A DNA stretch of 64,000 nt, from the NCBI RefSeq assembly GCF_018320785.1, contig NC_054886.1, positions 30,453,732-30,517,731 on the forward strand, in the 5' to 3' direction. Positions 30,886 through 64,000 of the stretch are shown piece after piece (position 1 is the first letter of the stretch; every line of letters starts with the position of its first letter). Origin of the DNA: Cheilinus undulatus (lineage: Eukaryota; Chordata; Actinopteri; Labriformes; Labridae). The notes beneath the pieces are model-generated. The model ran no database searches. It worked only from the letters and a program-made list of their open reading frames with translations, and was not told the DNA's origin. Made by a program: the position numbers and the translations under genes.

Positions 30886-31157
30886 TCACTCAGAAAAGGA
30901 GCCTTGACTCGGTGTTGAACTTCTTGATTTCTGCTGAAGCTCCTGGTAATGTTTCTACAAAAGAAGAGAGAGAACACAAGCTAGGTAAGGCTGAGTGTGT
31001 TTTTGAGTAGTGTTTCTGAAATTTGTGTGTGTGTTTTGTACCTGAAGCTTGTTGAAGTGTTTTTGGCTGCTGCAGTGGAGCTCCTTGGCCGTGTTTTCAT
31101 TTTTATAGAAAACAGAGCACAGGCTGCAGAAATAACCAGGGACAACAAACTCCTTAC
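30886..31157 (-). other. znf638: znf638-like: matrin-type zinc finger and C-terminus (exons 31042-31157, 30886-30954)
   Basis: Exon 31042-31157 encodes GKEFVVPGYFCSLCSVFYKN followed by a helix ending in HCSSQKHFNKLQ: two cysteines three residues apart and two histidines in the spacing of the matrin U1-like C2H2 finger, which binds nucleic acid. The final exon adds KHYQELQQKSRSS and ends TGA at 30886-30888. This is where ZNF638 and matrin 3 carry the same finger. Confidence 0.85.
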
Positions 31158-34100: not shown

Positions 34101-37100
34101 GTTCTTCCTCCTCTGCTGTGTCATCAGGGTAATCCTCTTCCTCGTCGCTAACTTCATCTAAGTTCACCAGAACGCTTGTTGTCTGTTCTTTTTCAGGTGA
34201 TTTCTCTTCAGTCTCTTTATCGAGTACGACAGTATCACTCTGAGATTTTATCAGGGAGTCTGATTTGGGTGTCCTTTCCTTATCCTGTGGACCAGAACCC
34301 TCTAAAATAGATGAATCCTCATTTATCTCCTTCAAATCATCAGCCGTCTGACGAAGACTGCCCACAACCAGTTTTTCAGGTTCTTCACTACATGTGTCTC
34401 CGTCTTTTTCAGCTTCCTCTCTAGGAGATTCATCTTTTGTCTTTGATTCATCCTTGGACACCGTCGTCTCTTCTTGAACTGCATCGTCTTCCAGAGAATC
34501 GACAATCTGGAACAACGGTTCTTCCTCCTCGTTTTCAGTTACTCCTTTCTCTTCATCTTTGTTTGTAGGAATATTCTCGTCTCTTGCACTCCCAGACTGG
34601 TCTGATGGGACTCGATCGTTGTTTGACTCGTCCTCTACAGAATCAAGAATCTCGAAAGTCGACACTTCTTCACTGGCCTCTTTTTCAGACGCTTCTTTGT
34701 CAACCTTTCTCGGTGTTGCGTCATCTTTCCTAGTCGATTTGACCTCTTTCTTTGGTCTTCCCCTCTTCCCTTTCCCTCTTGTAGCAGGCTTATCATCATT
34801 AATAACCTCTTCCTCCACAGAATCCAGTATTTCATAGGTAGCAGCTTCCTCGCTTCTCTCTTCGATACTCTCCTTTGATGGCGTGATCTCCTGTTGTGCT
34901 TTCGCCTCTTTCTTCGGGGTTTTTTCCCTGCTCTTTGACTCTCTGGCAGGAGTTTGTCTCTTTCTTGTTGGTGTTTCCTCTTTCAGAGCCTCCTCAGTGG
35001 TTCTGCCCCTTCTTCCTCTGGTTGATCTTGTTGAGATTGCTGGCTCATCACTGGCCATTTCATTCTCAACAGAGTCTAAAACCTTGTATGTTACCTCCTC
35101 CGGTTTTTCCTCTTTCTTTCCTCTTGTGCTTCTTCTTCTACCAGTGCTTTCTCTGGCTCTATCTGGTTCTTCAACTTGCTCTTCTTCGACAGAATCTACT
35201 ATCTCAAACACTATCTCCTCCTTTGTGTCAATCTTTGTCCTTGCCTGGTTTTTCTTAACTGTCTTGGCTTGTTTGCTGGTGAATTCTTCCTCTGTTTCAC
35301 TTTTGGATGCCTTGCTTGAAGGGCCACCTCTTCTTGAAGGTCTATCGTCTTTTTTGGCAATGGCCTCCCCTCTCTTGGACCTTCGTTGCTTGTTTTCGTT
35401 CTCCGTAGTTGTTGCCTGAACTTCCACAGAGTCGATTACTTGATATTCCCCTTCATCTACAGGTATTTTGTCATCTTTGGATGCCTCCACACTGGAAGTT
35501 TCAAACTTTTCACCTTCTGCCTGATCATCAATGGAATCCAATATCTCGAAGGCATCTTGCTCACTGTCAGACTCTTTTGTGTCGTCTTTATTTGGCTGGT
35601 CCTCATTTGGGGTCTCCCCCTGAAGGTTTCCTGCTTCTTTGGTGGCTTTGCCTTCGACTTCCTTCTCGTCTTGTGTTGTGTTTTTCTCTTCTCCCTTGCT
35701 CGTTTGAGTTTCTTTGCCTCCTGTGTCCAACTCTATAGGATTATTCTCTTTATTGATCTCTTGTATTTTATCATCAGATTTATCAGCTACTGGAACTACG
35801 TCTTCCTTGGAAGGCTGCTTTAAAGTCAAACAGTCTTCTATGACCAGGCCACTGTCTTCTTGGCTTGTTGCTTCTTCATCTTTGGTTGCACCCTCTCGTA
35901 GGAGGGGACTTTCGATGTCCATTTCTCTTTCCCCCTCAGGATGAGCTTTGCCTTCAACTTTGACACCATCCAAGACCTGGCCACCCTCCGATCCAGTTAA
36001 CTGAAGCGTGGAACTTCCATCTTGACCACCATCTTGCATCTGTTTATCTGTTTGACCGTCAGATGAACTGGCAGTTTGGCGATTATTGCTGTGAACCTCC
36101 TCCAACCCCTTTTGTTTGCCGTCTTCTTCCTCCTCTTCTTGGCTTTCCACCTTATCTTTATTTGCATTCAAATCATGCTCCATATCCTGGGTTTGGTTCA
36201 AATCTAATCCATGCTCCTGCTGAGGTGGATGCATCTCTCTTGTTGTTTCTATTTTTGTCTCTGACTCAACAGTTTCTGCAGCAGGGCCCAGTGCTGACAC
36301 CGTGTGGTCAGATGTCACCACTGCACTCTCTGTGTCATCAGCTTCCACTTTCCCCTTCTCTGTATCTAGGGAGGCCTTTTGAGATGCAGTGGAGGCATGT
36401 TTTTCTCTTTCACTTGCACTGGATGATTTCACAAGAGATTTTGTGCTGCTATGTTGTGTCTTTTTATCAACAGAGGACAGGGTTGCAGTTGACTTTGGAG
36501 GACAGGAGGAGGTGGCCTTACTGGCACTGGAGGAGGATGAGGATTTGGAACTGGATTTGGTGGGTTTAGATGAGTTTTTCAAGTCAGAGCTCGAGTTAGA
36601 AGGTCTGGAGCCTTTACTTGACCTAGATGAGGAGGATGAGCTTGTGCTGGTGTGGTCTTTTGAAGACCTTGTTGAGGACTGTTGCCGAGAAGAGGACGCA
36701 CTAGAGCTTGGCCTTTTTCTTGAGGAATGCCTGGATGAGGAGTGGCGACGAGACTCGGAGCTCTTGTCTTCAGCGTCGTCATAAACTTCATCAACAGTGA
36801 CAAACTCGTCCTCGTTGAACTGTTCCTCGTCAAAAAGGTAGGCATCAGGGAAGGCCTCAGAGGAGATGTTGTCTTCTGTAAAATCATCGTCTTGACCCTG
36901 AAAAGAAAGAAGCAATCACTAAAGTATAAAAGAAAACAATACTGCACTAATCATGGATCTCAATTGGTCACAATTAATGCTGACAGTCCTAAATCTTTGT
37001 GGAAATGGCTGGTGGTCCAGAAAGCTGATCTAAAAAAAACATGCAGCTTCTTTTGCTCTGAATTTAAGGTGAAACCTTTATAGGACCCCCTAAGGAAAAA

Positions 37101-40100
37101 AAATCATATCATTTTTGCAATCAGGATGCAAAATCTTATTAGTAGTCGCCTAGACTGCTTCATAATATTTGATAGCTCCTTGTTCTTGTGATCATCCACA
37201 TAGTGGTCTGTATTAATGGGTTCTTTAAATGCACCCTAGAATATCAACATCATCCATTTATTTATCAGATTATTGTAATCCTTTTGAAAACCACAGTTTT
37301 TAAATCAGTGTCTGGCAAGGTTATTATACTTATTATATCAAACAAAATAACTAAGACCACAATAAAAAAAATCAGTTTAATAAACTGAAATTAAACTGAA
37401 ATGAGGCTATACTGAAAAAAGGTTAGAAGTAAACTGCATGTTTACAAAACAAACTAAAATAAAACAAAATTTGAAGAAAAACGTTTTTGTTTTAGTCTTT
37501 AACATTAGCATACTAACTGACATGAACACACAGGTCTGATTAATGTAAAATTAAGAGGACTTAATACAGCTGTAATGTTAAGCTTTGAGCTGTGTTCAAA
37601 CATCACAAATAAATAAAATTAACAGTGAGGAGCCTGTTCTCATTTATTTTCAAAAATATATAATTTATTTTACTTTATTTAGTCTTGCTTCTTATAAGTC
37701 TCAAGCACCACCTGTTCACCACAGCCTACAGTCTTCACTAAACCACCCCTTACACTCATCCTACCCCTCACACAGTTTGTCCATGTCTATGTGTTCCTGT
37801 AAAGCGTCCTTAGGTTTCTTGAAAGGTGCTATATAAATTTAAGATATTATTATTATTATTATAAGTATCTCATGTTACTGAAAAAACAGAAACATAACTG
37901 CAACTTATAAAAACTAGATTAAAATAAAGTATGTTTGCACAATAAAAACTAAAAAAAAAAAAAACAAACCAGCAGCAAAATCAAGCTGAAGCTAGACTCA
38001 AATTAAAAACAAGAAGTGAAAATTGAATGAAAATAAAAACGAATGAATATTCCAACTTTTTGCACTGGTATCCAGTCCTTGTCATTATGTAAAACAGCCA
38101 CATGAGGGTGCCAATGTGCATCTCTGTCAAGTACCATAATCATGTCTTCTGCTTGAAAAAGATGTCTGGTCAATAAGAAAGCACCGTATTGGACTTTTTT
38201 CCAATAATATTTAAAAACTTAATATATTCAATATTGATACTGATAAACACACAATTGTTTTTATTTTAAAGAAGATGCTATTAAAATGATCTCACTTAAT
38301 TAAACAGCATTGTGGTTCCCTGAGATTATCCTGGCATGGTGTGTCAGTATACTGATTCTGCTTTAAACTGTCCAAACTTATCTGCACAATACTCTGTCTA
38401 AAGATAGTACATCAGCAGATTTTTCCTATCTACAGATATCGATAGCATGCAGATAATACTGTGCAACCCATTTAATAAAGTCATCAAAGTCTAAACACAA
38501 AACCTAGTTTACTGTCAGTGTCTTCGCTAAGCTTTAAAGCATTTTAATTTTAGAAGTAAAGACAAGGTTTGTAAATTTCCTTAATTAGATTTCAAACTAT
38601 GGTACTAGTTACTCTAACACTGCTAACACAAGGCAGTCATGTATTTGTATGAGCTACTTTCCAGAGCAGATTAATGGAGCTTAGTTGAAGTTCAAGCAGA
38701 AAGACTGTTTCATTTCCATTCATCCTTTCATTTGATGAGGATAAATATGAATATTGCAATACAAAAAGGTAAATAGGTATTAATAAAATGTATTAATACA
38801 TACAACAACTAAAAGGCATATTAATATTAATATCAATAACAACAAAACCCTAAAAGCTTTGCCTCAGCGTAGCATTGGTCAGCGTAACATAGTGTTCAGG
38901 TCAAGCTCCTTCATGTATCCGGCATCCCTTCAACGCTACTTCCAATAATCTCATCAGTGTCTGGGTTAAGATCCTTGGAAATCTGCTCCTCAGAAGTCTC
39001 TTACTCATCTTGTCCTACTCCCATCACCACCACCAGTGTCTAGACTCCATGGGGTGGGGGTGGGGGGTATCCTAGGCTGCTGTCAGCCTCACTACCCCTT
39101 AAAGTTTATAAAGACATCACGGTGGAGTCGTAAAAGAATGAACAACATTTCATAATTTCAGAAATTTCCAAACATTTCCAAACTTGTAGAATTAATCATT
39201 GTTAAACTCCTATTAAAAGTCTCTCCTGATAGAAATACAAATGTGTTGCTTTTGCAAGTATTTTCAGTTTTTGGACATAGCAAAAAAGATTTTTCAAAGA
39301 GAAAAATTTCAAAAATGTTTCTAATTTTAAAAGGTATGCCTGAAATTTGGCCCATGTGGTGCACCCTCCTAATAAACGATTCTGCAACACAAACAAATGC
39401 AACAACAGACTGAGATTTATACCAGAACCTCACCTGTCTTTCTACACCCTGAGACCTGCCTTTCTGAACCAGTCTCTGCTGGCCCACTGTCACCGTGATG
39501 GCTTTGAGCAAGTCCTTGTCCATCTCCGGGGACATCTCGTCACCACTGATCAAGTCGGATTCAAGGTTTATTATAGTCTCACCAGAATCTTGTAGCCGCT
39601 TTTTGAGGCTTTCCACACTGAAATTTAGAACAAAAGGATAGTTAATTTTCAATGGCAGAGTGAAATCATGTGATCTCAAATTAAAAACGAATTGTTTAGC
39701 CATCTTTTATTCATTTTATTGTTGGTGAATATGTCCAATTCGTTCAATACATGAATGATGACTGAACCTGACTACAAAATAAGCATGCTTTTGCAGATAA
39801 AATATTTACTTTTCTCTCTTAAACTGACAACAATTGATTAAAAGTTATGCACTTACGATTCAAAGTTTTTCACTTTACTCCTGGGGAAAGAAAAATGGCA
39901 TGGTTCAGGTGTGAGAATGGGTGGAAAAAAATAGCACAAAAACAGATTTTTTTAAAACAGATGCTAACTATTATAGCATAAATTCCTCCTTTTTTCATAT
40001 GCATAAATTTACAAAGACATTCATACCAAACTGGGTCCTCTCTGAAAGACTTGGTGGAGGGATCATTGTATTTCTCCACCACTTGGGTGACACCGTTGGA

Positions 40101-43100
40101 GTCAGTCATCTCAATGCATATCTGATTGAGAATGGAAAGGCAAAGAAAATAAGAAGAGAGAAAGCAGCTATTTTTAGAAAAACCCTGTGAGTTAGGTTGT
40201 AGTTTTATGAATAACAAGTACACCCAAAACTGTGGAGCACAATAACTAATAAATGGTGACTCGGTTGTGGCTTTTACAAACCCAATCATAATAAAAATGT
40301 GCACAGAGATTTCCTGAGATTCTCTGAATGTTTTGATATTATGTAGTATAAAATAGATGGTGGAATATTCAGTCTCTGTTTTACCTTGAGGAAAATTCTT
40401 CAAAAACTGCTCCACAATTTTTCAACAAGTTTTCAGAGATGGTGAACCTCTGCACATATTCACTTCTGAGAGACTCTACCTCTCTAAAATGCTCCTTTTT
40501 TACCCAGTCATGTCCATGGTTTGTTGCCCATTAACCTAATTAGTTGCAAAATGCTCCTCCGGTTCCATTTCATTAGTCCCACTTTCTTTTCCAGCCTTTT
40601 GTGGCTCTGTCCTAACTTTTTTGAGATGTTTTGTTGCCAACAATTTGAAATGAGCTAATAATTTTCCTGAAGTGATAAAACATCTAAGTGTCAACATCTG
40701 ATTTGTCGTTTATGTTCTATTGTGAATTAAATATGGGTTTATGAGATTTGGAAATCATTGCATTCTGTTTTCCTTTATATATTACACAGTGACCCAACTT
40801 TTTTGGAAGTGGGTTGTCAATAAATAAATGGTTAAAAGGTCTGTTTTTTATTCAGGTTTCTAGTCTCTAAGAATGTCATATATGTTAGAACAGCAGGATT
40901 ATGTTTACCCTGTTCCCCAGAGGCAGGAAGTTGACAAAAGTCGTGATGGACGCCACCATTTCTATGACCAATGTGATGACGTCCAGAGAGACCTCAGAGA
41001 CCTCCACACACAGCAGACGATCCTCAAGAGACATCGGATCAGGAACTCCCTGCACAGGAAGAAGAATTCAGTCCGGACCACCTCTCAAAAACCAAAAATG
41101 ATTTGCGCCTACAGAACATTGACAGACTGACATTGATCCAGTTGGAAGCAGGATAAAGGAGGAGCTGGGGTGGAGGAGGGTTGCAAGAGCAGCTCACGGA
41201 GAGAGTGCCAGAGGACAGCCAGGCAAGAGCAGTTTAAGTAAGGCAGCATGAGAGCCAATGGGCTACCTTAACTAGCGCTTTATGCTCAATTTGTTGTCAG
41301 GACCATGGAAAAACCTTTCACTTAAAACAACATAAACAAAAACGAAACATTACTTACAGCGTTGCTCCACATCATCATGTTTCTGTACATCTTCTCCTGC
41401 AAAAAAAAGAGGACATATTTTTAGAGATGCTCTGAAGTTGGATCCATTTCTATTAAATCCTCTTTGCTAAGGTCAGATCACACATTATAGCACGATCATA
41501 GCCTGATCAGACGAGCTTCAGTGAATTGTTTACTTTTTCTTTTCAAGAGTCCGTACCTCACTGGATTCTGGATACATGTTTTGCGTGACAAAGTGGACAC
41601 CAATTTTTTTCCTCTTGAATACAAGTCGCTTGGCAATATGGGCTTGGACAAACTCACAGCACATGGCCCAATCAGCAAAGTACACAAAGGCCTGGAGATG
41701 AAAATGGGAGAAGCAATGACTGTCAATTAATGTAAAGTAAAATAAACTTTTTTTCCATGAATGTTGAGCTTTTAATAATCAAAGTCATACCCTCCTCTGC
41801 AGCGGTAAAACTGTCACATTGTAGTACAGGGATTGAAGGTTCTGTTTGGTGAAATACGGCCAAACCATCCTCGCCACATCCTCATGCTTGTAGTTTCCTT
41901 CTGGCAAACCGGTCAACATGATCGTTGGACACAGCGAACCCTGACGGGTCGCCTTCTAGATAAACAAAATCACCAGCCAAGGTTACATTTTGTGCTATGA
42001 CACTTTAAATCCATTTATCACAGTTCATTGTAATCAAACATTTAAGATTTATATTGGAACGTATTGTGGTAATCAGGGTTAGCTGTATACATGGGCTTGC
42101 ACATTTTTTACAGAGCTGGCTTTTAACTAAAGTTCGAAACTGCAATTCTGAGCTTTTTCAATGACAGAAATCTGTAAGACGATTTTGTAGCAAGTGCACC
42201 CAGGAAGCTTGTATTACAGATGTGGCATTTGTATGAATCAGTTTAGGACTAGAGCAGAGAAGATGAAGAGCAGACGCACAGACACTGTGCACTGAAAATG
42301 CAGAGCTTTTCGGAGAGCCTCAGCTTGTTAACAAAGACTACAGTCTACATTGCTTTTCACTCACTTCAATGGTAGACGGACTAACATTAAAAAAGATTAG
42401 CTTAGTATTAGCTTCCTTTTCCTGTTCCTTCACTGTGTGCTGGCCGTGACAGTTTTTAACGGCTTTTCAACATCAGTATGTTAAATAAAAGCACTTGGTG
42501 GAACTAGTGATTCAATGTTTGGTAAATTACTTGTTAACAAATTAACTTGTTTAGTTAATCAACACCAAGAGAACCAAGAGAAGATGTTCTGAAGGTATTA
42601 CAGGAGTAACAGGCAAAAATCAGAAAAACAAAGTATTGCAAAATGCCTTCAACAAAAAAACAAAACAATAAAACAAGAGACATTTGTAAATTATTTTAAA
42701 TTCTATCATCCATTAATGTGAAATATGTGCATAAAATTAATTCCATTTCAATTAAAACTGTAGCAATTTGTGAGATTAACGCTGGAGTCCAAGTGATGTC
42801 TAACCTCCGGAGACCTGAGCTTTTGTTTTAGGGTGCATTTGTAGTTTCTCCCCTACTTTTTTGGGATAAGAAGGGTTGAATAAGTTAAATATAAACCTTG
42901 ACTTTGAACAGGAAATTCTTTGAATTATTCCTTTCAAAAATCCAAACAAATTCCCCAAAATTTCATTAAAAATTACTCAAAATTCCGGTGAAAATTTTTA
43001 AACATATTTAAAAGTAGCCCATAAATAATACCCCAAAATTTCTCGAAATGTTTATGTGATACTTTATCATAAGACCCAAATATTCCAATAAAAATTTCCC

Positions 43101-46100
43101 CCAAAATGGCATGAATAAACTAAAAAAAACCTAAAAAGATCAACAAATATATTCCCCAAAATTCCATGGTTAAGACCAAAATATCCAACCATGAACGTTC
43201 TTGAAAATATCAAAACACAACCTGCCCCCAAATTCCAATTCCATTTCCCAAAAATTTACAAATACATTTCTCCATAGTATACAAACTTATCCCTCAAATT
43301 TTCATGAAAATACTTGACAATTTCCAAGCAAACTCCCCAAAATGTCCAAAGAGCAAATTCTCCCATTATTTTAGGCAAATTACTTAAACTTCAATGGACA
43401 TTCTGAACAAGTATTTTTAAAAAAAGGAAGATAATTTTATGTTGTAGGAATGCCAAAATGAAATGTCCCCATATGTGCATGCAGGATCTTAAAATAAACG
43501 TCTGCAGAGGACTCTTCTGAATGTCCACAGCTGTGTGCAACTATGTTTCAACCACCTCAAGGGACAGTGGGGCGAGTCTCTGGCACCTTTATTTCGGGGT
43601 TCTTGGACAAAAAAGTTTGGGAACCCTTGGCTTGGGCAAAGAATCTAACCTCCAATTTATTTTGGGTAATGTCAAGATCAGAATCGGGCTTACCTCAATG
43701 GAAAACGTCCCTATGACAGTCTTGAACACTAGAAGATAGAAGTGAAAACAAAAAACAGATCACCTTACTCGTGTGCTTACTCAGCAGCCACAAAACCTAC
43801 AGGATGATAAAGAAAGATAAAGAATCTCTCTTACTTGGGATGACGAACCAAGGAGAAATGGTCGGGAACACAAAGGGACTATTTCTCAAGCTGATCCAAA
43901 ATGGTGAAGGGCTGATCTGTGGAAGAAAAACTTTCACTCCTGGCAACGTTGCCCCTTCAACAAGATCGTCCCTGTCCAGGAGAGTGTCGTTGGGAAATTG
44001 TGGTGCTGCACGGATAAAGGAAAAAATAAATTCAAGCTGGGATGAATGCATTTTTGCTCTATTCTATGGGCAGTTTCCAGTTCAACGGCCAATGTGAGAC
44101 CTCAAAGACAGATCCTCACCAGGGGGTATATGGCAGCCGGTTGGTATTTTCAGCCTCTGGATTCTGTAGCTAGGGGGTTGTTTCAGAAGACTGTACCAAA
44201 CTCCCAGCCAATCAGCATCACGACAAGTCTTGAACTCAATAAATACCTGAAACACATTCATACACATACAGAACATGATTATCAACAACTAGGAGTTTTC
44301 TTTGTTACTGGTTTAATCAGTGTAATCATATCAGGATGCTTCTACCTTGTTGAGGAGAGGAAGGAAGTTCTTGACAGAGCCGTGCCTCTCTAAAACCTCT
44401 CTGAGGTCCCTGGTCTCACTGGGTGAGATGTCTCTGATGAGAATGACCCCATCTCTGTCCCCCTTCATGCGCTGAATCAAGAAAAGGAAGTCAACATTCA
44501 AATGAACAGTTTAACAGGGGAAAGAGATTTAGAAGTGAAAACTAAAAAAAATTAAAGCTGAGGTTTTGCTTGACTTACGTATTTGACCAGCTCCATCAGG
44601 GATTTATAAAACCGGAACTACAACAGAAACAGCAAAGCAGACAGAGATAAGGCGCAACAATATAATTCTCCAATGCAATCTTCAGAGTTTATGTGCATTT
44701 GTATAGATATTGCTGGAAAAAGATCAAATAAGTCAGAAATTATTTACAGGAAGGTTATTTATTATTTGGGGTTTTCTGTATTATAGATAAGACTGGGGCA
44801 GGCCTCCTACTCTGCTGTATGGAGTTCCCCAGGGTTCCGTCCTTAGACCAGGCCTTCTCCTCAGTCAGTTTCAGTAGGAGCAAGACCACCCATAAGTGTG
44901 AATAAAAAGGGGAGAGTGTTCTGAAGCCGAGCCAAACTGGGGGCCCATGGGGGTCAGCAAAAGTTGTGATAACCATATTTAATTTTTAACCTAAATAATA
45001 ACCACTCTTATCGAAGCAACATTCTTTTTTAATTATTTAAGCTGTAGTACAAAATAACCTTTTTCAAAATTATTTTTGTATATTTTTGTATAATTATCCC
45101 TTTAATTAAACATAATTACCTTTATATTATATTATTAACAGTGTGGATGGACACAATTATTAGGAAAGTAATTTCAGACTTTATAGCTAGGCCATGATGT
45201 GTACATATGCCAGGATGCCAGAAAATAAAATAGAAGAAACTGAGATAACTTTTTTTGGATACATAGTGAATACATGTGAAAAGAGAAAACAAGAGGGTAA
45301 AAAAATAATGCATAAATGGGTTAAAATGTGCAAAAAATGGACAAAAAGTGGCAAAAAATAGCTAAATTAGGCAAACAGCTGCAAAAGATGTTGCAGAAAA
45401 GTGTTTCTTTTTTTAATGACAGAAATGCATGAAAAGGGGCTAAAAACTAGATAAAAGTGGCAAAAAAGTAGGGGGGAAATGGGTGAAAATTGGCAAAAAA
45501 AAAATTGGATGAAAGTTGCATAAACAGGCAAAAAATGGCAAAAAGTTGATGAAAAAATGGGTGAAAAAATAGGCAAGAAATTGCAAATATGGGCAAAAAG
45601 CTGTTAAGAAGTTGCAGGAATGGGTAAAAAAGGGACAATAATTGAATAAAGGAGGTAAAAGATGGGCAAAAAAAGCAAAAATTGGTTAAAATGGCAAAAA
45701 ATTTGGCAATAACAGCTTGAAAAGAGGTAAAAAAAAAATCAAGTACCACAAATAAATAATTCCAACATCAGAACAGAACCCAACAATAGCCTGACACACT
45801 TTCCAGCTCCAAAATGAAGTCACAGAGTGCTAGCACTAACGCCACTGATCCAGCACAACTGCATTGATATCATCAAAACACCAAAAGTGGGGAGGGCCCA
45901 TCCTCTGGGTTTTTCAGGGGTACAGCCTATTCTGTGGGCGGGCCTGAGTGTGAGACAGTAGTTTTGTGTTTAACTGTCCCGTTTGGGGAGCCTGAGCATA
46001 TCCCAGCCTTTATAACTGTATTATTTCCCTCTTTAACCATAATCCCACCTGTCGGAAAGGAAGGTTCTGCTTTTGTAGGGTTTCCCAGGAATTAAGACAA

Positions 46101-49100
46101 ATGAATGATGATGATAAAAAACAATTAAAAAAGAACTGAAAAGTATTCAATGTAAGAATGTCAGTGAAAAGCTCACCGGACTCATTGAAATAACGTCGTC
46201 CATCGGATGGAAACTGAGTTTGGACTCCTTTAACAAAATGGGATCTTTTTTGGAGGCTCTTAATATGTCGCTCACTTTTCCTGTTGACGGCATTTGGACA
46301 AAAGCCTGAGAAAACAAAAAAACAAACAAATCAACACAGTTATTTGTGTTTATCTATTTTTATTTGTGTCTAGAGAACTTTCTTTTGTTGACTAAACTGG
46401 GGGCATTCTGAATTAAAGAATTCTTTACAAACAAGGTGAGTTTCTCCACAGAAATGCTAAAACCAGCTTTTATTGAAAAGCACAAACCTGAAGTTTAACG
46501 ATACTGTGTTTTTGTTTCTCGTGACATATTACAAGAAAAAATTCTTTTGATTCTATGAGATTCACGTGCACGATGGTAGCGCAGCACTCAAAAAGGGAGA
46601 GACATCTGGCTGCAGACCTCTATGGTGGGGCAGTTTGGGCTCATGTGTTGCAGACCTCTACATTGGGACAACCTCGACCGTGAGACAGGAAGTGATAACA
46701 ATAATAATAACAATAAATCAATTTACCTTGACATTAAACCCTACAAAACAGGTACAAAGACCCAGGTCAATCTTTAAATTTGTGCTTTTAAAACAAGCTC
46801 TAAAACAACTGTGACATCATGACAAGACAAACACAACCTGCTATTATCTGTAACTATAGCCATGACTTATCCTGCATCTACGAAGAGAAGGCCAATGTGA
46901 ACAAAGCAGCTGTGGCCATGACTGGAAAGTACCAAGAAATCAGACAGGGCTGAAAAGGGACAAACACGTCTACTCTCTCACTAATTATTCATTATTTATT
47001 CATACAATTGTGAAAAAATAGCCAGTTACTGTAACCTCTGACAGGAAGTGGATAATATACGTCATTCTGGTTCCAGCTCCAGCTCCAGTATGTCTAGGTC
47101 GCCCCCTATAGAGGTCTGCTGCCAGATCCTCTTGTAAAGAGGCAGTTTTAAAACCCCTATAATCCAGAATTACTCACTTAAAGGTGCATCACTGTTTTCT
47201 TTAGATGCAGTTCACTTTAAATGAGGGGGAGAAGTTGATGGAAAATTATTAATGCCAGCTTAGTCTGCCACTGAACTTGCCACTTGCAATGCACAATAAA
47301 AGGTGGTGAATTATCAACTGCGTTGGGCCAGTGTGTGATGGGAAAAATAGGTATTAAAAGTGCCTCTATCCCCCAGATTTTATGGTATCTGAGCAACAAC
47401 CACATGATTTTTTATCCAAAGCAACAAGAGAATTGCACCCGGGTGTCATTTTACAGAAGTCTTATCTTAAAATATCAAAATCTCACATATGTGTATGAAT
47501 TTAGAAAAAAGAAATAAGTGCTAAAAAAGTGCATACCAAGCAGGCCTGAGGAACAACATAGATGTTGTGGTCTTTGTGTTGATACCCAAAAGGAGTGAGG
47601 AGCTCGACAATGTCATCCTCCGTGTAGCAGCCTTCCTCATAAGCCGGCAGCCAGGTGATGAGCATCTGAAACAACAAAGACACAAGAGGAGAGAGGTGAT
47701 ATCACGAAGGAGAGGAAACATCACCACACATGCTGTCGCTGCAATGAGAGATGACTGTTGTCTTCAGAAAACATGTTCTTGATAATATAAACTACTTTGA
47801 CAAGAGTGGGGGACGGTGCTAAACCAAGTCGAGCTTACTACTTCTTTGGATTGAGTTTGTTGTTCATCCTAAAGCTGTGCAATATTTTAAAAAATTAAAC
47901 AATAGATCGATGTACCTTCAAATGAGATTTAGGATAAGACCAGAACCTTAAAAGCATTAATTTATCTGAAATTATTTGTCTAAATGGAGAATACTACTTT
48001 TTAAATTTCATATAGGGACTTTTATATAATTAATAGAACTCAAATGATATTTATGTACTGTATGCTTAAAACAACAGTGTAAAAGAAAGTCCTGGACACA
48101 AAACATTGGGCAGTTTTTCAGTTTTATCTTTCAAAAGCTGTAAACCAACTCTTGCATACAGTCTAAATCGTGCAAATCAATGACAGCATTTGAGATAGTG
48201 GGTAGAATTGAGACCATGCTCACTTTGGAGGAATATTTGGCTGTAAACTAGTTTCTGTACATTTAATGCCACTTATAAAAATAATGGGAGATTTTATGGT
48301 ATGGACAAGAGGAATGTCCTACAATTTAGACACTGTTTTAAAGAACCCAGCGTAGCGCCGGTGTTTCGATTAGCATATTCATTTTTGAGTGGCGGTAGAT
48401 TTGAAACTGGAGATAGATCAATCATTCTTTTTGCATATAACATCTGGGGAGTTACACTAACATTTCACATGTTCACCATGTTTCAGAGTGCTTTTTTGTT
48501 GTTTTTTGTTTTTTTACAAAAACACTCAGACTCGAACGCAAAGCTTTCAAACCAATTACATCCCCAGATGATGAGTCCAACTACTCATCTACCTCAATTG
48601 TTTTCACAGGTTACAAAATTGACTATATCTCAAAAAGCAAGTGATGTACAGACTCCAAATAAATTTCCTGTGGTTCCAAGGGATATTGTGCAACTTTTTT
48701 ACATTTACAAATTTGAGGGATCCAACTGTGCAATTTCTGTATTTTGAAATATATGTAAACATACAAAAACGATTTTCATTTTTTTAGGTTTATTATACTT
48801 TTAAGCAATTTATTGTAGTAGTTAAGACATAAATCAATACATATTATTAAAACTTGAAGTATAAGGGTTATATTGATGTAAAGCAAATAAAAATACTCTA
48901 TAGTAAAAAAAATAAATTGCACTATAGTATGTAAAAATGTAAGAACATGTCCTGGCGGACTTACACAATGGTAGGTTTTAAAGGGTTAAGAGTTTAGGCA
49001 ATTTTTGAAAACTAAAAGCAAAGAAAAAAACACCCAATATTAGGTTTCTTACAACTTCTGTTCCTACGGCAATGGTTAAACTTTGATTTTACAAGAATCA

Positions 49101-52100
49101 TATCAGAATATCTAAACAATTTCTTGTTTCTTTACCAAATTAGTTTTATTGAGGTTCTGTCTAGGTATGATTCTTGATCTGCACTGTATATGGACAAAAA
49201 TATATTTAAATTCAGGTGTTCATCCCTGCTTGATACTCCACAGTCAACTGTAAGTGATATTATTAGAAAGTGGAGGCGTTTAGGAACAACGGCAACTCAG
49301 CCACAAAGCGGAAGACAGCAAAACTCACCAACGCTCTGCTGATTCCACAGCTAAAGACGTCTGAGCTTCCACTGGCATTAATCTAAGCACAAAAAGCTGC
49401 AGTGGGAGTTTCATGGTTTCCAATCATACTGGATACTGGACTGTGGAGCAGTGGTGTTTCGCACCAGCGAAACATTTTCAAGAACCTCAATCAAGTCCAG
49501 TAGCCCTCTTGAGGGAGATTTGGATTCACTGAATGTGAAAACCTTTGAGCAGGGGTCATCAAGTACATCTGCACAAGGGCCAGATTTAGTCTCAACAGAA
49601 ACCCTGGGGGCCGGACTTTCACATAAACAAAAATTAAATCAATATTTTGATCTGATCAATTTATTATTGCAGCAGTATTTGTATTTTCTTTCAGAGAAGG
49701 GGTGATTTAGTATCAGAATCAACCCCTTTTCACTACTTTGCCAGGCTATTTCTGCTATGTTTTCGCCACTTTTAACCCATTTTTGATACTTTTTGCCTCT
49801 TTAACTCAATTTTTTTCAATTCTTTAGCCCTTTTTATACCATTTTCCTGCATGTTTTATCTTCTTTGTGCCACTCTTTTATCCATTTTTGCCATTTTTCC
49901 TTCTATTCTTGCCATTTTTGACCAATTTTTTGATACCTTTTGCCCCTTGTTTCCTCTTTAGCCATTTTTGCCACGTTTTAACCTCTTTTCACCACCTTTT
50001 CTGCCAATTTTTGTCCCTCTGTGCCACTCCCCATTATCACCCATTATTTTTGTAACACTTTTGCCAGCGTCACCCCTTTTTTAAAATATCTAATAAGTAT
50101 GAATGAAAAGTACATTTCAGTAAAAAAAAAAAAAAAGATAAAATGTGAAGTGTGATGGAAAGATCCATATTAAGGTGTGTGCTCGTTCTTCTTGAGGGTA
50201 CTGTCAGACTTCTCCTTCCCCTTCTTCGCACCAGCAAGCAGCCTCAGCACCAAGTACAAGGCCGAATCCATATTAGGCTTCGTGCTCATTTAACTTGTTT
50301 GTTTCTTTATAATGTTGCTTAAGATGAATTACAACCAAGGTCTAGACTGTTGATTTATGAGGTAAATTGTTCCAAAGTGAAGAACACTTTGGACTTGACC
50401 TGTTCTCACCCTTTTCAGCACTCACAGAGGAAGCTGCATGACAAGGAGGGGGGCAGTTTTCATAGCTTTTACTCTGTATCTTACTTTGCAGAAGTGGGGT
50501 GCAGGAAGAGAGGGAAAAATAGCGCCAAACTTCAAGGTTAGCATCTGCATAGATGTAACTTAGCCTATGAGAGGTTATGAATAAGTACTGCAGATGTATT
50601 GTATTGTAAGATATTCAATGTTTTATTCATGTTTATTCATGCTTGAAAATTAACAAAACGGGACTGCAGCCTGGCGGGACTCTCCCTTCGACCGTCTTAT
50701 GTGATTGTTATTGTGAGACTCCTCTTCTTGAAAGAATATCTTTTCAATAAATCTCATGTTAAAAGACATCTCTGACTTGAGCTCTCTTTGTTATTCTGAG
50801 TCCAAGAGAAAATTGCCAAGACAGAAGTCATTCTAAAACTAATATAATATTAATTGTTTGTGGGATGGATTTAACAGCTGCAGACATTTAAAGCCATAGG
50901 ATACTCTTAAAACCACAACATCTTCTTTTCTTCCTTTTCTGAATTTAATGATCTTTCGGGGGGCTGGACAGGAAGCTTTTGGGGGCCTGATATGGACGCT
51001 GGGCTGCCAGTTGATGATCAGTGCCTTAGAAGAATTTTTTTAAATTGGTGTCACAAACCAAGTATCATAACTGACATGTTATCTTGAGTTGAGTTTGACA
51101 CTTCATCACTATATAATGCAGCAAAAGCTACAGTCAAAGTAACAGCACTTATTCTAGAAGACTGAAATCACATTTAAAGAGTTATGAAAAACCAGAGGAA
51201 AACTACCTTTGGTGTAGTCGCGTTTTTTCTCTTGAGGGAAGCTGTCGAAGAGAAGCAAAAACAAAAATTATAAAATCATTCTGAAAACAGAAATTTATTG
51301 AAAACACAAAGACTCATTTCATAGATCTCTCACCAATTATTTGTTTTGTCAGGTGATGCTCTAACCTCTCCCCAAAGGTCAGATTGGCGTCTTTGGCTGA
51401 TGTGTCTGATTGTGTTGTCAGTGCAGCTGATGGAGCTTTACAAGGATAAATTTAATTAGGATGAGTTTTTGGACAGTTATGCTAATTTTCCTTCAGATTC
51501 CCTTTAACCCATTGAATTTTGCAATAAAAAAGGAGTCTTCCAGTGCATAAAAAGGCATGACTAGCCGTGACTAACCTATGTGGTTCAGCTTGATGACTTT
51601 ACAACCAGGGGCTTGACCCAGCAGACTGTACCAACCTTCAAACCGAGCCGCATCTTCAACACACTCAAACTCTAAAAAGAGCTGGAAAAACACAAAAACA
51701 CAGAAGTGAGCGTGACAGGAAGTCTTCGTCATAGTAAATCAAACCGCTGATACTGTGTTTAAGTGTTTCTACCTTGTTGAGGAGGGGCATGAAGTTTGAG
51801 ACAGGACCAAAGTCTTCCAGAGCTTGTCTGAGCTCCCTGATCTTACTGGATGAAATGTTCCTGATGAGGAAGGTTCTCCCTCCCTCATCCAGCAAATACT
51901 GCACCAAAATATAAAGAAACAGACAGAGATTTGACAGGGTTTTTAAACGTATACTGTCGCTTTAAAACACTATGTCTCACCTGGACTTACTGTCACAAAG
52001 AGCTTGTAAAACATCGACTCTGCGGTGCACACTTATGCTTTAAACATCAACGACAAAAAAAATACCAAACGGAAATTAAAACCCAAAGAGTTTTATGTGA

Positions 52101-55100
52101 GCCACAGTAAACACAAATGTGTACTCCCATCTCTAGGGGACCAAAAAGTGGAAAAAAATAATCATTCTGCAACGAAAAGTCTTAAAATTTTCAAATATTT
52201 ACAAAAAAAAGTTCCTTGACCCTTTTTATATTGGCTCTATTTGAGCCATTACTCAAAGCAGTTCCTGTCTGCAGTGACACAGAGGGACACGTCACGGGCT
52301 CTCTGTCTCCCTTTCTCTCCATTAGGAGCTTTCCAGGCTGTCGCCTCCAGGATATACATGCCCACTTTGACAAAGTATGACGTGACTACAGAACAGCCTG
52401 CCATCGGTTTGCACAGACTGTCACAATGCATTGTGGGATATGAAATACAAAATACAGCAGATAGCATTAGCCATAAAAGATCAAAAAACGGCTTAAAAGT
52501 TGGATGAAAAGACGATCATTGCTGGAGGTTTTGATCTGGATTTCTTGATTTCATCTTTGAATGCCCTAGAACCTTGGTTCCCAACCTGCGGTCCAGGACC
52601 CCCCTAGGGGGCGCTGGATACATCCTCGGGTGGTGCGAGGCTCTGTATGCCCTGAGGTTAGACTTGTACATATCAACAGGAATCATGGTATAACTTAAAA
52701 AAGATTCAAACTGTGGTTGTTGGGTAAAAGAATTTGTGTTTATAGGGCTACTTTGTTTGGATTTGCACAAAAAAACAATTAAAATCTGTTAATTTCGGCC
52801 ACAAAGTATCACTATTTTTTTTCGAGTAGGTCCTGGGAGGGCTCAAGTTTTCTTAGATACAAGTAGGAGGTTGGGAAAAAGGTTGGGAACCGCTGCCCTA
52901 GAAAGTCACTAAAGTTTTAGGCTTTACAGACGCTGGAGATTACTGTTCAGCCCTCTGGAGGTGCAGTGGGACTAACTGGATGAAACACTGATGAAGAAGG
53001 GTTCCCACTTAACAACCCTGGTGAAGTGTGGGTTTCTTACTACCCATCAGTCTGCACAGTTGATTTGTGGAGGCAAATAGTCCTCTCTCCATCCTCCATC
53101 CTCTTTATAGGGCACAAGTATCTTGTGTTTTATTCAGATTCTAGGCTTGATAGAAAAGCTTTTGTAAGCACTCGAGAGGTTTATGATTCAAAAGTTAGAT
53201 TTTTAATAACCTGTCTCGAAAATGTCCATCTCAGAGAGTTGAGAGTAATTAACAGGATTTAAACGTGTGGTGCGCATTTGTGTAAATTACTTACACACTT
53301 CATCAGCCTCTTCAGGAATCGATAAAACTGAAGCTGAAATAGAGACATCACAGAGGCAGCGTTAAAACACTGAACACTTTATACTGTTGTAGTTTTTGAA
53401 ACATGTTGCATTATCTTAAGTTATTATTGATATGTACCGAAGAGTAAAAGTGAGCTTTGGCTAGCATTATTGCAGCTACAAACTGCACAGTCAGCTCTGT
53501 AGGCCACACAAACAAACTGGGCCAAACCAAGAAAGTTAAAAAAAATAAATAAACATAAGAAAATTAAAAATTATCAGAAAAAAAACTTGAGCTGAGGTAG
53601 GTCTGTTAATTCTGCTTTAAATTACAAACTTATTTGGACATTCTGCTGACATGTTAGCCAATAAATGAATGGTAAATATTGGCAAAAATTTCTGCAAACA
53701 CTTGAATTTCCCTCTGGCCTATTGTAGTATCTATCTATCGATATACCAATAATACACTTTTAAAGCCAACGTCTGCTGATGTCGATAACAAGGCTGTACA
53801 TTGAGACAGTGCATTCGGAAAGTATTTGGACCCCCTTGACCTTTTCCAGTTTTGTAATGTTGCCGCCTGATGCAACATCAAAATAACAAGAATTTTAATT
53901 CTCATTAATCTACACTACACAGTACCCCATCATGACAAAGTGAAAACACAATTTCAGAATTTTCTGCAAATATAATAAACAAATATAACAAAACAAAAAA
54001 ATATTACACTGACATGCATGAAAGCCTACTTGGCTTCCATTTGGAGGTTTTTTGCAAACTCCAAAAAGGCTTTCATTTGTTTCGCACGGAGGAGATTCTT
54101 CCCTCTAGCCACTCTGCCATAAAGCCCATAGGGCTGCAGTGAAGGTTGTCTGTTAGTGTGAGTTTGCCATGTTCTTTGAGGAATCATGTAACACAGCTAA
54201 AATCATGTTTCGCCTAGGGTGTGCAGAGATCCAGGAATAGTATGTGAGATGGACTTTTAAGGATTGAGCTGCATACGTGGGTGTTTCCACATACCAGTAG
54301 TCAAGAGTGCAAAGTGATGTTCCTGTCTGTATATCTTGGCCCAGCTGTTCCCAGTAAGCTCTACCGATCTCCACACAGGACCTCTGGAGCTCAGTCAGAG
54401 TGGACTTTAGGTTTTTGGTCTAAGCCCCTTCTCACCCAACTACTCAGACTGGCTGGGCAACCGGCTCTTGGAAGAGTCCTGGTTCTTCCATGTGAGAATT
54501 ATGGAGGCCAAAGTGCTCCTGGGAACCTTTCTTGTTGCCTCCTCCAGATGTGTGACTTGCAACAATCATGTCTCTCTGCAGGCAGTTCCTTTGACCTCAT
54601 GGTTTGGTTTTTGCTGTGATATGCATTATCAGGTGTGCCTTCTATAGAGAGGTGTTTGCCTTTTAAAATCATGTCAAATCAGTTTATTTTACCTCTAATC
54701 AAGGTGTAGAAACATCACAGCAAAGACTGAGGAAAAGAAGAGGAACCTAACCTTTTTTCAAAGGGTCTGAATACTTATGTCAATGTGATATTTAATTTTT
54801 TACTTCTAATTGATCTGCAAAAAAGTCTAAAGGGGGTCTGAATACTTTCTAAATGAACTGCATGTCCAACATTATGGCTTCATGAAGGTTATTTTGTTGC
54901 ACAAAACCTACAGATATAGAAACTCTTGTTGCTCAGAGAGCTAATTCTTGGCAGGCATTGAAAACACAAAGGTTGTTACCACAGTAATAACCAATGCATA
55001 GGCAATCTCTCAAAACAATGTGCTGCCTGATTAAGCATTAAAAAAACACGTAAATACGTATGATTTATACGCTTACCACTTTCATCTGATAGCGGAGACG

Positions 55101-58100
55101 TATTATTTTGATAGAAAGCCTGTTCTCCTTGAGGAAAATGCCGTTATGTTGAGACTCTTTCAGAATATCATACACATTTCCTATCGATGACATCGTGGCA
55201 AAGGCCTGAAAGGAAATTAATAATTTTAAAAATCACAGAAAATGTAGTGCTAAAACCAGTAAAGTCACATATACTGTGCTCTTTTGACAAAAAAAGGCTT
55301 GAAATTTTCAAATTCTGCAAAAATATTTTTTCCAGAATCTATACTTTTTTATCAAAGAAAAAAAAACTACAGAAGCATGATCCACTCTGATATCCACTTA
55401 TAACCTGATGCCTACCATGCATGTCTGAGGAATAACGTAGAGGTTTTCTTGTTTATTTTTGAATCCGAAAGGAGCAAGCAGATTAGCAACATCATCCTCT
55501 GTGTATAATCCATCGTGATATGTCGGCAGGTTACATATCAGCAATTGTTGGTTGTACGACTGAAAAACAGAGGACAGAAAATCTGAATTAGAAAGGAAAA
55601 AGATTCATCATTAGAAGTGAATTACAGCCATCTTGCTACAGTAACTCTATTTCTGGATCATGTGAGTGTTATGAAGAAACTCACTGATGGTGAGATGTGG
55701 GGAGACTGTAAGCAATCTGTGAAAGATATAAAAAGGTAAAGTCATACATTTAGAGGAATTCAATTTAAGAAGAGATAAAAATGCTGATTCAGTTTCTTAC
55801 GTATGCTTTGTGGAAACAGGTGCTTCTCCAGCATCTCCCCAATCGTCGGCTGGATGACTGCAGCAGAAGGCTTTTTAGATGCAGGTTTCTGCTTACTCCC
55901 GACTGCAGATGCTGGTGTAGTTTTCACTTTGCTGACCGTTTTGGAGGACCCCTCTGCTTTTGCCGTCACTGCTGTAAAAGGATTTTGAATACAACAGATT
56001 TGATTAAGACAGATGTCAGAGCATCAACACCGGTTTGGGACTGTCAAACAGTTAAAAAGGCAAATGGAAAGCTCTGCGGTCACATGAATCAAAAATTAAA
56101 ATTATTTTGGGAAACCAAGAGCACTGTATCCTGCCACCCAAAAAGGAGAGGGACCATCCAGTCCAAGCCTGCATCTCTGATGGTATGGGGTTGCATTAGT
56201 GCCTATAGCGTAGGACGCTTACACACCTGGAAATGCACTATCAATGCTAAGTAGACAGAGCAATACATGCTCCCATCCAAACGTCTCTTTCAGGGAAGGC
56301 TCCACATGTATCAGCAAGACAATGCTACTCCACATACCAAATCCCTCACAACAACATGGCTACACAGTAGAAGAGTCCTGGTGCTGAATTGGCCTGCCTG
56401 AACTGGAGCATCGTAAATTAAAAAATCTGGCTAAGGCCCCGTCCACACAGAGATTAATTCAGGAGTATGCGCAAAAGTTTTTTGTCGTATTGGCGTTTAA
56501 TCCAAATTAAACAGCATTTTGGGAGGCCATAAATGTTGCTTTTTAAAACCGGGTCCCAGAGTGAACAAATCTGTAAACGCTTACCGTTTCGTCTCCATGT
56601 GAACAGCCAACCTCCTCTTTCTTGAAACGATTACATCATACATAATGTAGACCACTTAAGGAGCCTATGCAGGTCTGGCCAAAAAAACCAGTGGTGGATT
56701 ACAGGGTGGTATTCGTGCTGCAGAAGCTACTGAGCTTATTATGGCTTTTACAGCCAAATCTGATGCTCCTTTATCACCACCAAGAACAACAGACACCAGA
56801 TATTCTTAAATCCAGCGAGACGAACAAGCAGAAGAGCAACAAGGAGAAAGTTTGTGTCAGTTTTCTGTGATCTTCTCTCTTTTGGTGCATTTCCATGGCA
56901 GCAATACAGCGCCTCATACAGGCTTGGCATTTATACTACAGCATTTTCAGGCGTTTTCAGTGGTTTCATGCTTACGCGGACATTTCCTGAAACGACTCCA
57001 TATTTACAGAAAGCTTTTCCAAAACGAAACTGTTTTCATCTTTGTGTGGACAAGGCCTAAGAAGATCCAGGACTGTTCAGCAGCTTGAATCTGCATCAGA
57101 CATGACTGGGACAGCATTCCTCTCCCAAAACTCCAGCTAACGGTCCCCTCGGGCAAAGAAGAAGCCAAATGTGAACACGATCCATCATCTCTGGGCCAGA
57201 GCTCACTGAAAATGGAGCAAGGCAAAATGGAAAACTGTTCTGTGGTCAGGCGAATCAAGATAAGAAGAACCAGGACTGTTGAGGTGCTAAAATCCTACAT
57301 CAGACAAGAATGGGACAACATTCCTCTCCCAGTACTCCAGCTAATGGTCTAGATTGTTGTTGATGGTGCAGTGTGTGATATTTAGCCCAGTATTGTCTGG
57401 TTGAACAAACTTAAAAATGTAATAAATTATAAATAAATACGTCTATTGGAATAAGTGTCTACTCATCAGAATATCTAAAATGTATTTACCTTTCTTCTTA
57501 ACTTAAAATTTGCCCTTTTTTCATATATGTCCGCCATCTTGGAATTTGCATATTTCATGTTCCCACAATACTACAGAAGGGACTTAATAAAAGAAACTCC
57601 CTCTGGCTGAAGGCAACGATTACCACCAGAAATAAGCATCACAATCCAGAATCTGACTGTTTGATGTTGATTATATTCCCAAATTTTACACAGTGCACCC
57701 CTAAAAGGAGAGGAGAAGCTACACAATGGTATGGTAAATGCAACTTTTTTAAAATTTGGGTTGCATACTTTTTAATGACTATCTCAGACATACCCTTTTG
57801 TGTTTTTGATGCAGTCCCTCCACTTAGCACATCTTGCTGTACCGCAGCATCAGCAGCGCTTCCTGCAGCCTGCTCTTTTACTTGAGAAGCTTCTGTCCTG
57901 CTCTCTGGTTGTTTTTCTGGTACAGCTTCAGCACCATCTGTCCCTCTGTCCTCTGTGCAAATTCCAGATTCCATGAGCTCCATAGGCCCCGTTTCCCCAA
58001 GCTCCATTGGTTCATCAACTTCATCAGCTTTGACAACTTTTTCTTGATCCTTGTCTTCAACAGATGGGACATCTGCTTTTTCAGCAACCTCAGCCAAAAC

Positions 58101-62699: not shown

Positions 62700-63980
62700 T
62701 TAATACAACCCAAATTCCAAAAAAGTTGGGCCGTTGCCTTGAATGTAAGAAATGCAATGATTTGAAAATCTCATAAACCACAAAAGAACATATCAGCTAC
62801 TAAGACAGACATTTTACCAATTCATGAAAAATATCAGCTCATTTTGAATTTGATGGCAGCAGCACATCTCAAAAAAGTAGGGACAGGGGCCTGATTACCA
62901 TTGTGTAGCATCCCTTCTTCTTTTAACAATAGTCTAAGCATCCAGGAGGTGAGGGGACCAGTTGTTGGAGTTTTGGGAGAGTAATGTTGTCCCATTCTTG
63001 TTTGATGTAGTATCCTAGCTGCCAAACAACTTCGAGCCTTCTTCTTTTGATTCCACTGACAACAGAGCAGTTTTCCATTTGCCTGAATCTATTTCAATGG
63101 CCCAGAGAAGACAGCTGTGTTTCTAAATCCTGTTCACAAAGGGTTTCTTCTTTGCATGATGCAGCTTTAAGTTACATTTGTGGATGCCAAACCTGTGCTG
63201 ACAGACAAGTGTGATGGAAAATCATGTCTTAAACTTGCAACCTTGCATTTACCCCACCTAAACCTCCGTCTTGTCTTGAGCAAACTACTGTATGTCTGAC
63301 CTGGTCTTCACCTCTTGAGGGACTTTGAGGACTGTACTGAGGGTTTTAAAACAAAAGGGTTTTTGGGGTGGTCAACAACATCTTATTCATGGCTTGTAGG
63401 TATTTGTGTTCGAGCCCGCCTTATCTTGACAATGAAAGGACCCTTTGACTGGGAGGTTAATGGCCTAGCAGGGGTTATCTGTGGGGCAAGACTCTGTTTT
63501 ACGACCTATTGTGTTACCTACTGGCTACAAAGGAGGACTGGATTTAACGTACTCCACACATTCTGTGAAGGCCCTGTCATGGTCATAGTTGGTGTGTCCA
63601 CCTCAGGTGTGGATAAAACCCAAAAAGTTTCTCCTGCTGATTGTCGTCGGTGTTGTCTTATAGATATAGATTTCCACAACATAATGATTTCTGGAAGTGT
63701 TCCTGAGTCCATGCAGTGATTTACATTACAGAATCAGCATGCCGTCTGAGGGCAATTGTAGGCACATTTTTCTAAAATTGATCCACAATTTTTAGATGCA
63801 TTTCATCGTAGATTGTTGAACCTCTGCCCATCTTTAATTTTAAGAGACTCTGCCTTTCTAAAATGATCCTTTTATACCCAGTCATGTTACCAACCTGTTG
63901 ACAATTAACCTGATTAGTTGCCAAATGCTCCTCAAGTGGTTCTTCCTCTTTTACAAGCGCTTTGTTGCCCTGTCACTACG
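62700..63980 (-). mobile_element. Tc1-like family copy, antisense, with inserted stretch
   Basis: CCCAAATTCCAAAAAAGTTG at the left and the phrases CTCAAAAAAGTAGGGACAGG and ACAATTTTTAGATGCATTTC match the antisense of the 22463-23130 family. About 63215-63680 does not match the family and looks like a separate insertion. The ORF at 63315-63719 inside it has no recognisable domain. Confidence 0.6.
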
Positions 63981-64000
63981 TTTTTGAGATGTGTTGTTGT

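Follow-up and report, generated by a model that had tools for sequence, protein, structure and literature searches.

A ZNF638/NP220-like gene of Cheilinus undulatus with a probable three-copy RRM module and a predicted protein of at least eight RRMs

How many RRMs can a gene of the matrin-3/RBM20/ZNF638 group encode, and how might they have been gained? This question is raised by a 64,000-nucleotide stretch of Cheilinus undulatus DNA, which was analysed as a whole and is called the window here. Judging from its sequence, the minus strand appears to carry a ZNF638/NP220-like gene, of which the window contains the 3′ part. It is quite probable that this gene contains a module in three copies and, upstream of it, a duplicated RRM, and that the predicted protein has at least eight RRMs. 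Each module (M1, M2, M3) comprises six exons: a pair encoding RRMa, one of 39 nt, a second pair encoding RRMb, and an exit exon. The exons of the first two modules are listed below.

55416..55582, minus strand: M1 exon 1, RRMa first half (acceptor at 55582, phase 1, or at 55559, phase 0)
55077..55205, minus strand: M1 exon 2, RRMa second half
53295..53333, minus strand: M1 exon 3, 39-nt linker exon
51773..51898, minus strand: M1 exon 4, RRMb first half
51576..51681, minus strand: M1 exon 5, RRMb second half
51207..51241, minus strand: M1 exon 6, exit exon of 35 nt (modelled in phase 1)
47537..47665, minus strand: M2 exon 1, RRMa first half
46177..46305, minus strand: M2 exon 2, RRMa second half
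44579..44617, minus strand: M2 exon 3, 39-nt linker exon
44346..44471, minus strand: M2 exon 4, RRMb first half
44120..44246, minus strand: M2 exon 5, RRMb second half
43694..43728, minus strand: M2 exon 6, 35-nt exit exon

Both blocks lie where the initial annotation had placed them, with the exon classes that it had named, and they pair exon by exon. Exon lengths are 144 (or 167), 129, 39, 126, 106 and 35 nt in M1 and 129, 129, 39, 126, 127 and 35 nt in M2. Exon order and the phases of the introns that follow exons 1 to 4 are common to both blocks, as had been claimed, and M3 shares them too. M1 and M2 are identical at 80 of 176 aligned residues; at codon positions 1, 2 and 3, identity is 60, 72 and 53%. 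The whole-module protein score of 386 was reached by 0 of 500 shuffles (mean 29.1, SD 4.6), and the kinship of the two blocks stands. Across modules, RRMa pairs with RRMa and RRMb with RRMb; the nine a-to-b comparisons were unremarkable, and a comparison of the RRMa and RRMb profiles gave no match (probability 0.3%). This a-a and b-b kinship, together with the shared exon order, supports the earlier proposal that a whole module was duplicated within one ZNF638/matrin-3-type gene.

The matching exon boundaries are compatible with unequal exchange in introns without demonstrating it. When equivalent introns were compared, all twelve pairings yielded nothing beyond short matches (best E 0.005); equivalent introns are unlike each other, and the duplication is therefore old. 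We propose that a six-exon module with two PTB-type RRMs was tandemly duplicated to three copies long ago, perhaps by exchange in introns, and that a separate RRM may have been duplicated upstream to give R1 and R2. The layout could also be ordinary for fish ZNF638 and already in databases, either through a duplication that preceded the teleosts or through copies that are unrecognised in ZNF638 generally. Module divergence and dissimilar introns, which speak for an old duplication, agree with this, and a putative human RRM2 sequence weakly matches RRMa, with an E-value of 0.014 (nominal search size 1000), as a tentative lead. A putative human RRM3 sequence did not match RRMb (E 6.4). On the other hand, ZNF638 is given two RRMs in one review passage (PMC6279932), in agreement with the earlier remark that the layout is unfamiliar from described ZNF638. 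Among titles and abstract starts, no domain study of ZNF638 in zebrafish was found; literature searches on RRM tandem duplication and RRM number, and on the paralogy of matrin 3, ZNF638 and RBM20, found nothing. We give an ordinary fish layout a slightly better than even chance; it is compatible with the three-copy explanation and not exclusive of it.

The third copy is the most diverged part of the three-copy explanation. Its exons, with the basis of each call, are listed below.

41791..41955, minus strand: M3 exon 1, RRMa first half (gene finder; shuffles)
41557..41691, minus strand: M3 exon 2, RRMa second half (gene finder; shuffles against M2)
41358..41396, minus strand: M3 exon 3, 39-nt linker exon (gene finder; model)
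40909..41049, minus strand: M3 exon 4, RRMb first half (gene finder; absent from the initial annotation)
40027..40121, minus strand: M3 exon 5, RRMb second half (splice sites, phase)
39434..39617, minus strand: M3 exit exon, 184 nt (missed by the gene finder)

This block had been described as partial, with its second RRM lost or altered. We find six exons spanning 41955-39434 on the minus strand, with 39617-39434 as the exit exon. The second RRM is not lost, being encoded by two exons (41049-40909 and 40121-40027), but it is altered; the exon 40027-40121, previously added with a 'perhaps', is part of M3 as the second half of RRMb. In whole-module shuffles, the M2-M3 score was equalled by 0 and the M1-M3 score by 2. 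Exon 1 stands above shuffles against both M1 and M2 (0/2000 each), as does exon 4 (10/2000 and 4/2000), and exon 2 against M2 only (0/2000; 204/2000 against M1). For exons 3 and 5, among the five M3 exons compared, similarity to M1 or M2 was not above shuffles, and they were assigned because of order, length, phase and splice sites. Among non-members, HMMs built from M1 and M2 put M3 exon 1 at the top (E 0.11) and M3 exon 4 next (E 2.2); M3 exons 2, 3 and 5 are missing from the eight best matches listed. That M3 is a third module copy is moderately supported.

M1 and M2 might be real and M3 a decaying remnant, its second RRM unfolded, in which case the working protein would have six or seven RRMs. 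M3 is far more diverged, with 31/174 residues identical to M1 and 43/166 to M2. Searched alone with phmmer against solved chains, M3b gave zero matches at E up to 10, and a donor score of just -0.1 was obtained for exon 5 (40027). The similarity of R1 to M2b is also about as strong as that of M3b to M2b (4/300 against 2/300 shuffles, hardly different). Nevertheless, all six M3 exons are open, have AG/GT borders and keep the frame, four of them were called by the gene finder without homology input, and within the NFxPLxN stretch N, F, P, L and N do not vary among the three b domains. Decay of M3 seems rather unlikely to us. No sign of an assembly artefact repeating one locus was seen, and such an artefact is excluded at the observed divergence of M1 and M2, which are identical at fewer than half of their aligned residues and have unlike introns.

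In the three-copy explanation, the modules are preceded by two further RRMs.

62623-62516 and 62430-62332, minus strand: R1, RRM in two exons (Pfam RRM_1)
59715..60357, minus strand: Lys/Ala/Ser-rich spacer exon from R1 to R2 (gene finder; open in the model)
59206..59619, minus strand: R2, an RRM shared by exon 59619-59485 and the beginning of exon 59304-58689 (Pfam RRM_1)
59304-58689 and 58603-57794, minus strand: exons with R2 second half and long spacer (gene finder; model)

The window therefore holds eight RRMs (R1, R2 and three RRMa-RRMb pairs) instead of the about seven counted initially. Each of the eight is interrupted by a phase-0 intron where beta-3 is inferred to begin. Open phase-0 candidates of 39 nt number eight in about 33 kb of the minus strand, and three of these lie between RRMa and RRMb. 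The R1-R2 score was equalled by 0/300 shuffles. When the domains were compared with RRM profiles, as had been suggested, R1 (22.2 bits) and R2 (23.4 bits) exceeded the Pfam RRM_1 cut-off of 20.7, whereas M1, M2 and M3 had zero matches to Pfam RRM families at E up to 10. Scanned as single domains at E up to 1, five of the six module domains (all but M2a) matched no Pfam RRM family. PTB-type RRMs are not known to carry the aromatic RNP signature. The module RRMs were recognised solely by comparison with solved PTB-type RRMs. Against solved chains, the RRMa profile matched ZNF638 6SXW (E 6.5e-6) and RBM20 6SO9 (E 9.5e-6), and it cannot separate the two proteins; the RRM kinship of RRMa, as of R1 and R2, is evident from sequence. 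The RRMb profile matched Matrin-3 1X4D (E 0.0018) and PTB (E 0.025 to 0.055); that the b domains are RRMs is moderately supported. The top solved chain for R2 was Msx2-interacting protein (E 3.9e-5), with weak matches to PTB and hnRNP L (E 0.34 to 0.87). A first-half PTB-type profile finds only M1a, M2a and M3a (ranks 1, 2 and 8), with R1 at 28, R2 at 38 and the b domains at 74 to 278; with a second-half profile built on four solved PTB-type RRMs, none of the eight RRMs came higher than 32nd.

Downstream of the modules, the gene continues to a zinc finger and a stop.

33700..36897, minus strand: large exon, acidic and Ser-rich, containing VTxDE-type (four) and DSVE-type (seven) repeats (gene finder; model)
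31244..33612, minus strand: exons 33612-33501, 32134-32024, 31903-31643 and 31360-31244 with two more VTxDE-type repeats
31157-31042, minus strand: exon of the matrin-type C2H2 zinc finger
30954-30886, minus strand: terminal exon with stop

The pattern [LFV]V[TIN][VL]DE, which defines the VTxDE-type acidic repeats, matches six times in the model. The finger (C-X2-C...H-X5-H, 31128-31057) lies in the penultimate coding exon and matches U1-C (E 3.3e-4); against Pfam zf-U1 it reached 20.4 bits, under the cut-off of 22. The model joins 32 exons, all with AG/GT borders, into a reading of 2,792 residues that stops just past the matrin-type finger; in its final form it depends in part on the hypothesis. 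The gene finder, run without homology input, missed M1 exons 1, 3, 4 and 5, R1 exon 2, M2 exons 3 and 5, M3 exon 5, the exon 39617-39434 and the zinc finger exon, and assigned other frames to the terminal exon and to M1 exon 6; these exons were positioned from homology, splice sites and phase. The R1 splice scores are weak (acceptor 0.6, donor -1.8). Module order, splice sites, phases and open frame can be read from the DNA itself, and a single transcript would presumably carry all modules. Several candidates were rejected or set aside: the gene-finder exon 54133-54030 was read as a remnant of a Tc1-type transposase (HTH_Tnp_Tc3_2, E 0.0056, 17.4 bits; cut-off 31.5), the gene-finder exons 56246-56227, 50433-50410, 49568-49465, 44163-44120 and 43971-43835 are weak and off the module pattern, and at 56929-56867 a stretch resembling a zinc finger lacks a good acceptor on visual inspection. 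A search of a phage collection gave zero matches.

Human ZNF638 has a basic spacer between its RRMs, and NP220 carries an LVTVDEV acidic repeat. The fish gene resembles ZNF638/NP220 in its RRMa profile, nearest to 6SXW, its C-terminal matrin-type finger, its VTxDE acidic repeats and a basic inter-RRM spacer. PTBP1 and hnRNP L, which have four RRMs and no zinc finger, show weak matches only (PTB to the RRMb profile, PTB and hnRNP L to R2). According to the review passage, ZNF638 and Matrin-3 each have two RRMs between two zinc fingers and RBM20 has one RRM (PMC6279932). The fish gene differs from ZNF638 as described there in the eight RRMs of the window, and also in its three tandem RRMa-RRMb modules and additional DSVE-type acidic repeats; the N-terminal finger of the ZNF638 layout would fall outside the window. 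It is like Matrin-3 in that 1X4D is the chain nearest to the RRMb profile, and unlike it in having several modules and a long region of acidic repeats. The likeness to RBM20 is that RRMa is almost as close to 6SO9 as to 6SXW. The synteny set of ZNF638 is given in one passage as Dysf, Exo6b (as written) and Cyp26B1 (PMC10350081); positions 1-30850 of the window hold nine candidate exons above threshold, the one compared with solved chains being a C-type lectin, and the window omits the upstream side.

Taken at sequence level, a single predicted protein seems to carry at least eight RRMs rather than about two. The RRM pairs may act as a multivalent array that contacts pyrimidine-rich RNA, in a nuclear protein that would otherwise function as NP220 does; the degenerate copies might contact proteins instead. 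M2 and M3 start and finish in phase 0, so skipping either would preserve the frame. Only tentatively, we suggest that a fish lineage turned ZNF638/NP220, a factor in silencing and splicing, into an array of at least eight RRMs via repeated whole-module duplication and that skippable, frame-neutral modules can tune the RRM number. If this is true, the RRM number exceeds the up to six quoted in one passage for RBM19 (PMC8600070), which likewise has many RRMs; the two numbers are compared by description. Since the module RRMs were missed by the Pfam models used, RRM counts in the family may be underestimated. NP220 binds cytidine-cluster dsDNA and is reported to be the first to bind incoming retroviral DNA, recruiting HUSH and SETDB1, which silence that DNA (PMC8621569). 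An expanded RRM array in an NP220-like protein would offer a system for asking what the RRMs contribute, and the common intron site in all eight RRMs would be a clear trace of how a multi-RRM protein grows.

The modules are carried by one minus-strand gene, which enters at the window edge (64000) and ends near 30886. Exons were called with a small gene finder that uses codon statistics and splice-site scores without homology input. It yielded many of the gene's exons, and those it missed were placed by similarity, phase and splice sites. The final model has 32 exons, with AG before and GT after each internal exon, and runs for 2,792 residues to the stop. R1 is the first exon visible, and the N-terminal part of the protein lies beyond the window. 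The RRMs and the exon lengths of the modules, each of which carries a first and a second RRM (RRMa and RRMb; M1a, M1b and so on), are as follows:

62623-62332, minus strand: R1, RRM upstream of M1
59619-59206, minus strand: R2, RRM upstream of M1
55582 or 55559-51207, minus strand: M1, exons of 167 or 144, 129, 39, 126, 106 and 35 nt
47665-43694, minus strand: M2, exons of 129, 129, 39, 126, 127 and 35 nt
41955-39434, minus strand: M3, exons of 165, 135, 39, 141, 95 and 184 nt

The three modules share one plan, in which RRMa (two exons), a 39-nt exon and RRMb (two exons) are followed by an exit exon. In every module the first four introns, those that follow exons 1 to 4, are in phase 0; exon 5 is followed by a phase-1 intron in both M1 and M2 but by a phase-2 intron in M3. 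M2 and M3 both start and end in phase 0. For M1, splicing directly to the exon that ends at 57794 gives a start at 55582 in phase 1; the alternative start, 55559, is in phase 0. With thresholds fixed before counting, but with the claim of the initial annotation already known, only eight open phase-0 39-nt candidates were found in about 33 kb of the minus strand (31-64 kb), three of them between RRMa and RRMb of M1, M2 and M3. The third block, previously described as partial, has every exon of the plan but is strongly diverged. The multi-RRM array proposed earlier stands, with eight domains in the window rather than about seven.

R1 and R2 reach the Pfam RRM_1 cut-off. No Pfam RRM model matched M1, M2 or M3, which were recognised as RRMs by comparison with solved chains. 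Alone, M2 matched ZNF638 (6SXW, E 0.0054), M1 matched RBM20 (E 0.072) and Matrin-3 (0.43), and M3b had no match. The three-member RRMa profile found ZNF638 (E 6.5e-6) and RBM20 (E 9.5e-6), and the RRMb profile Matrin-3 (E 0.0018), then PTB (0.025). Three solved PTB-type RRMs supplied a first-half profile, which among 2086 six-frame segments placed M1a 1st, M2a 2nd and M3a 8th; the remaining five RRMs, namely R1, R2, M1b, M2b and M3b, ranked 28th to 278th. With the second-half profile, none of the eight ranked above 32nd. A phase-0 intron lies at the inferred start of beta-3 in 8/8 RRMs, some of these junctions having been placed with the common pattern in view. We read this intron as descent of all eight from one two-exon RRM.

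The core observation, duplication of a whole module within one gene, proved right: the M1-M2 score was equalled in 0/500 shuffles (80/176 aligned residues identical over five exons). For M1-M3 and M2-M3, 2/500 and 0/500 shuffles did so. All six same-type domain pairs gave 0/300, except M2b-M3b (2/300), and the nine a-to-b pairs were equalled by 9 (M2b-M3a) to 293 of 300, as expected from copying of the whole a-b unit. R1 against M2b, however, was equalled in only 4/300, so that M3b is hardly nearer to M2b than R1 is. Tested per exon, M3 exons 3 and 5 showed no similarity above shuffles, and exon 2 exceeded them against M2 only. With HMMs built from M1 and M2 alone, M3 exons 1 and 4 were near the top among the matches listed and exons 2, 3 and 5 were absent among them. 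The R1-M2b likeness, the M3 shuffle results and the HMM misses weaken the case for M3 as a copy.

Twelve comparisons of equivalent introns gave no convincing similarity (best E 0.005); the copies are therefore old, and the exchange point is unreadable. Identities at the three codon positions, a coarse measure, are 60, 72 and 53% for M1-M2, 40, 52 and 36% for M1-M3 and 40, 55 and 36% for M2-M3, a pattern that fits protein-level constraint, not decay.

Several repeats and possible transposon remnants were also seen in the region:

54133-54030, minus strand: possible Tc1-type remnant, transposase match below cut-off
55769-56251, plus strand: possible Tc1-type remnant by eye only, best Pfam match unrelated and below cut-off
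60614-61864, intron between R1 and R2: degenerate tandem repeats, periods about 20, 40 and 59 bases
40389-40636 (M3 intron) and 63760-63999 (upstream of R1): dispersed copies, about 74% identical, probable mobile element
57058-57349 and 62956-63084: short direct and inverted repeats, 78-84% identical

Downstream of the gene, nine candidate exons exceed the score threshold. The one compared (21997-22105, minus strand; WLWSDGS) is C-type-lectin-like and matches solved C-type lectins. Another such stretch (7431-8018, minus strand; WLWSDGS) was judged by eye, and neither has a Pfam match. Together with a signal-peptide-like exon (9745-9634) and small similar exons (9479-9521, 16655-16699), they suggest tandem lectin genes.

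VTxDE-type acidic repeats are a mark of NP220 (ZNF638), and six occur in the gene. A distinct set of seven [FY][EKQ][IV][LVI]DS[VLI][ED] repeats lies in an acidic exon (36897-33700, minus strand). At the gene's end is a matrin-type finger (C-X2-C...H-X5-H), whose Pfam zf-U1 score is below cut-off. Because of this finger, the VTxDE-type repeats and RRMa, the gene is placed by its sequence in the ZNF638/matrin-3/RBM20 group, most likely as ZNF638 itself. According to a review (PMC6279932), matrin3 and ZNF638 have two RRMs flanked by two zinc fingers; the window has eight RRMs, a layout that may be common to all fish. PMC8621569 describes NP220 as a nuclear protein. It reportedly binds cytidine clusters in dsDNA, is the first to reach incoming retroviral DNA, and recruits HUSH, SETDB1 and HDACs. 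The array of PTB-type RRM pairs would add multivalent contacts with RNA or with proteins; the M3 pair, which is more degenerate, may act in protein contacts.
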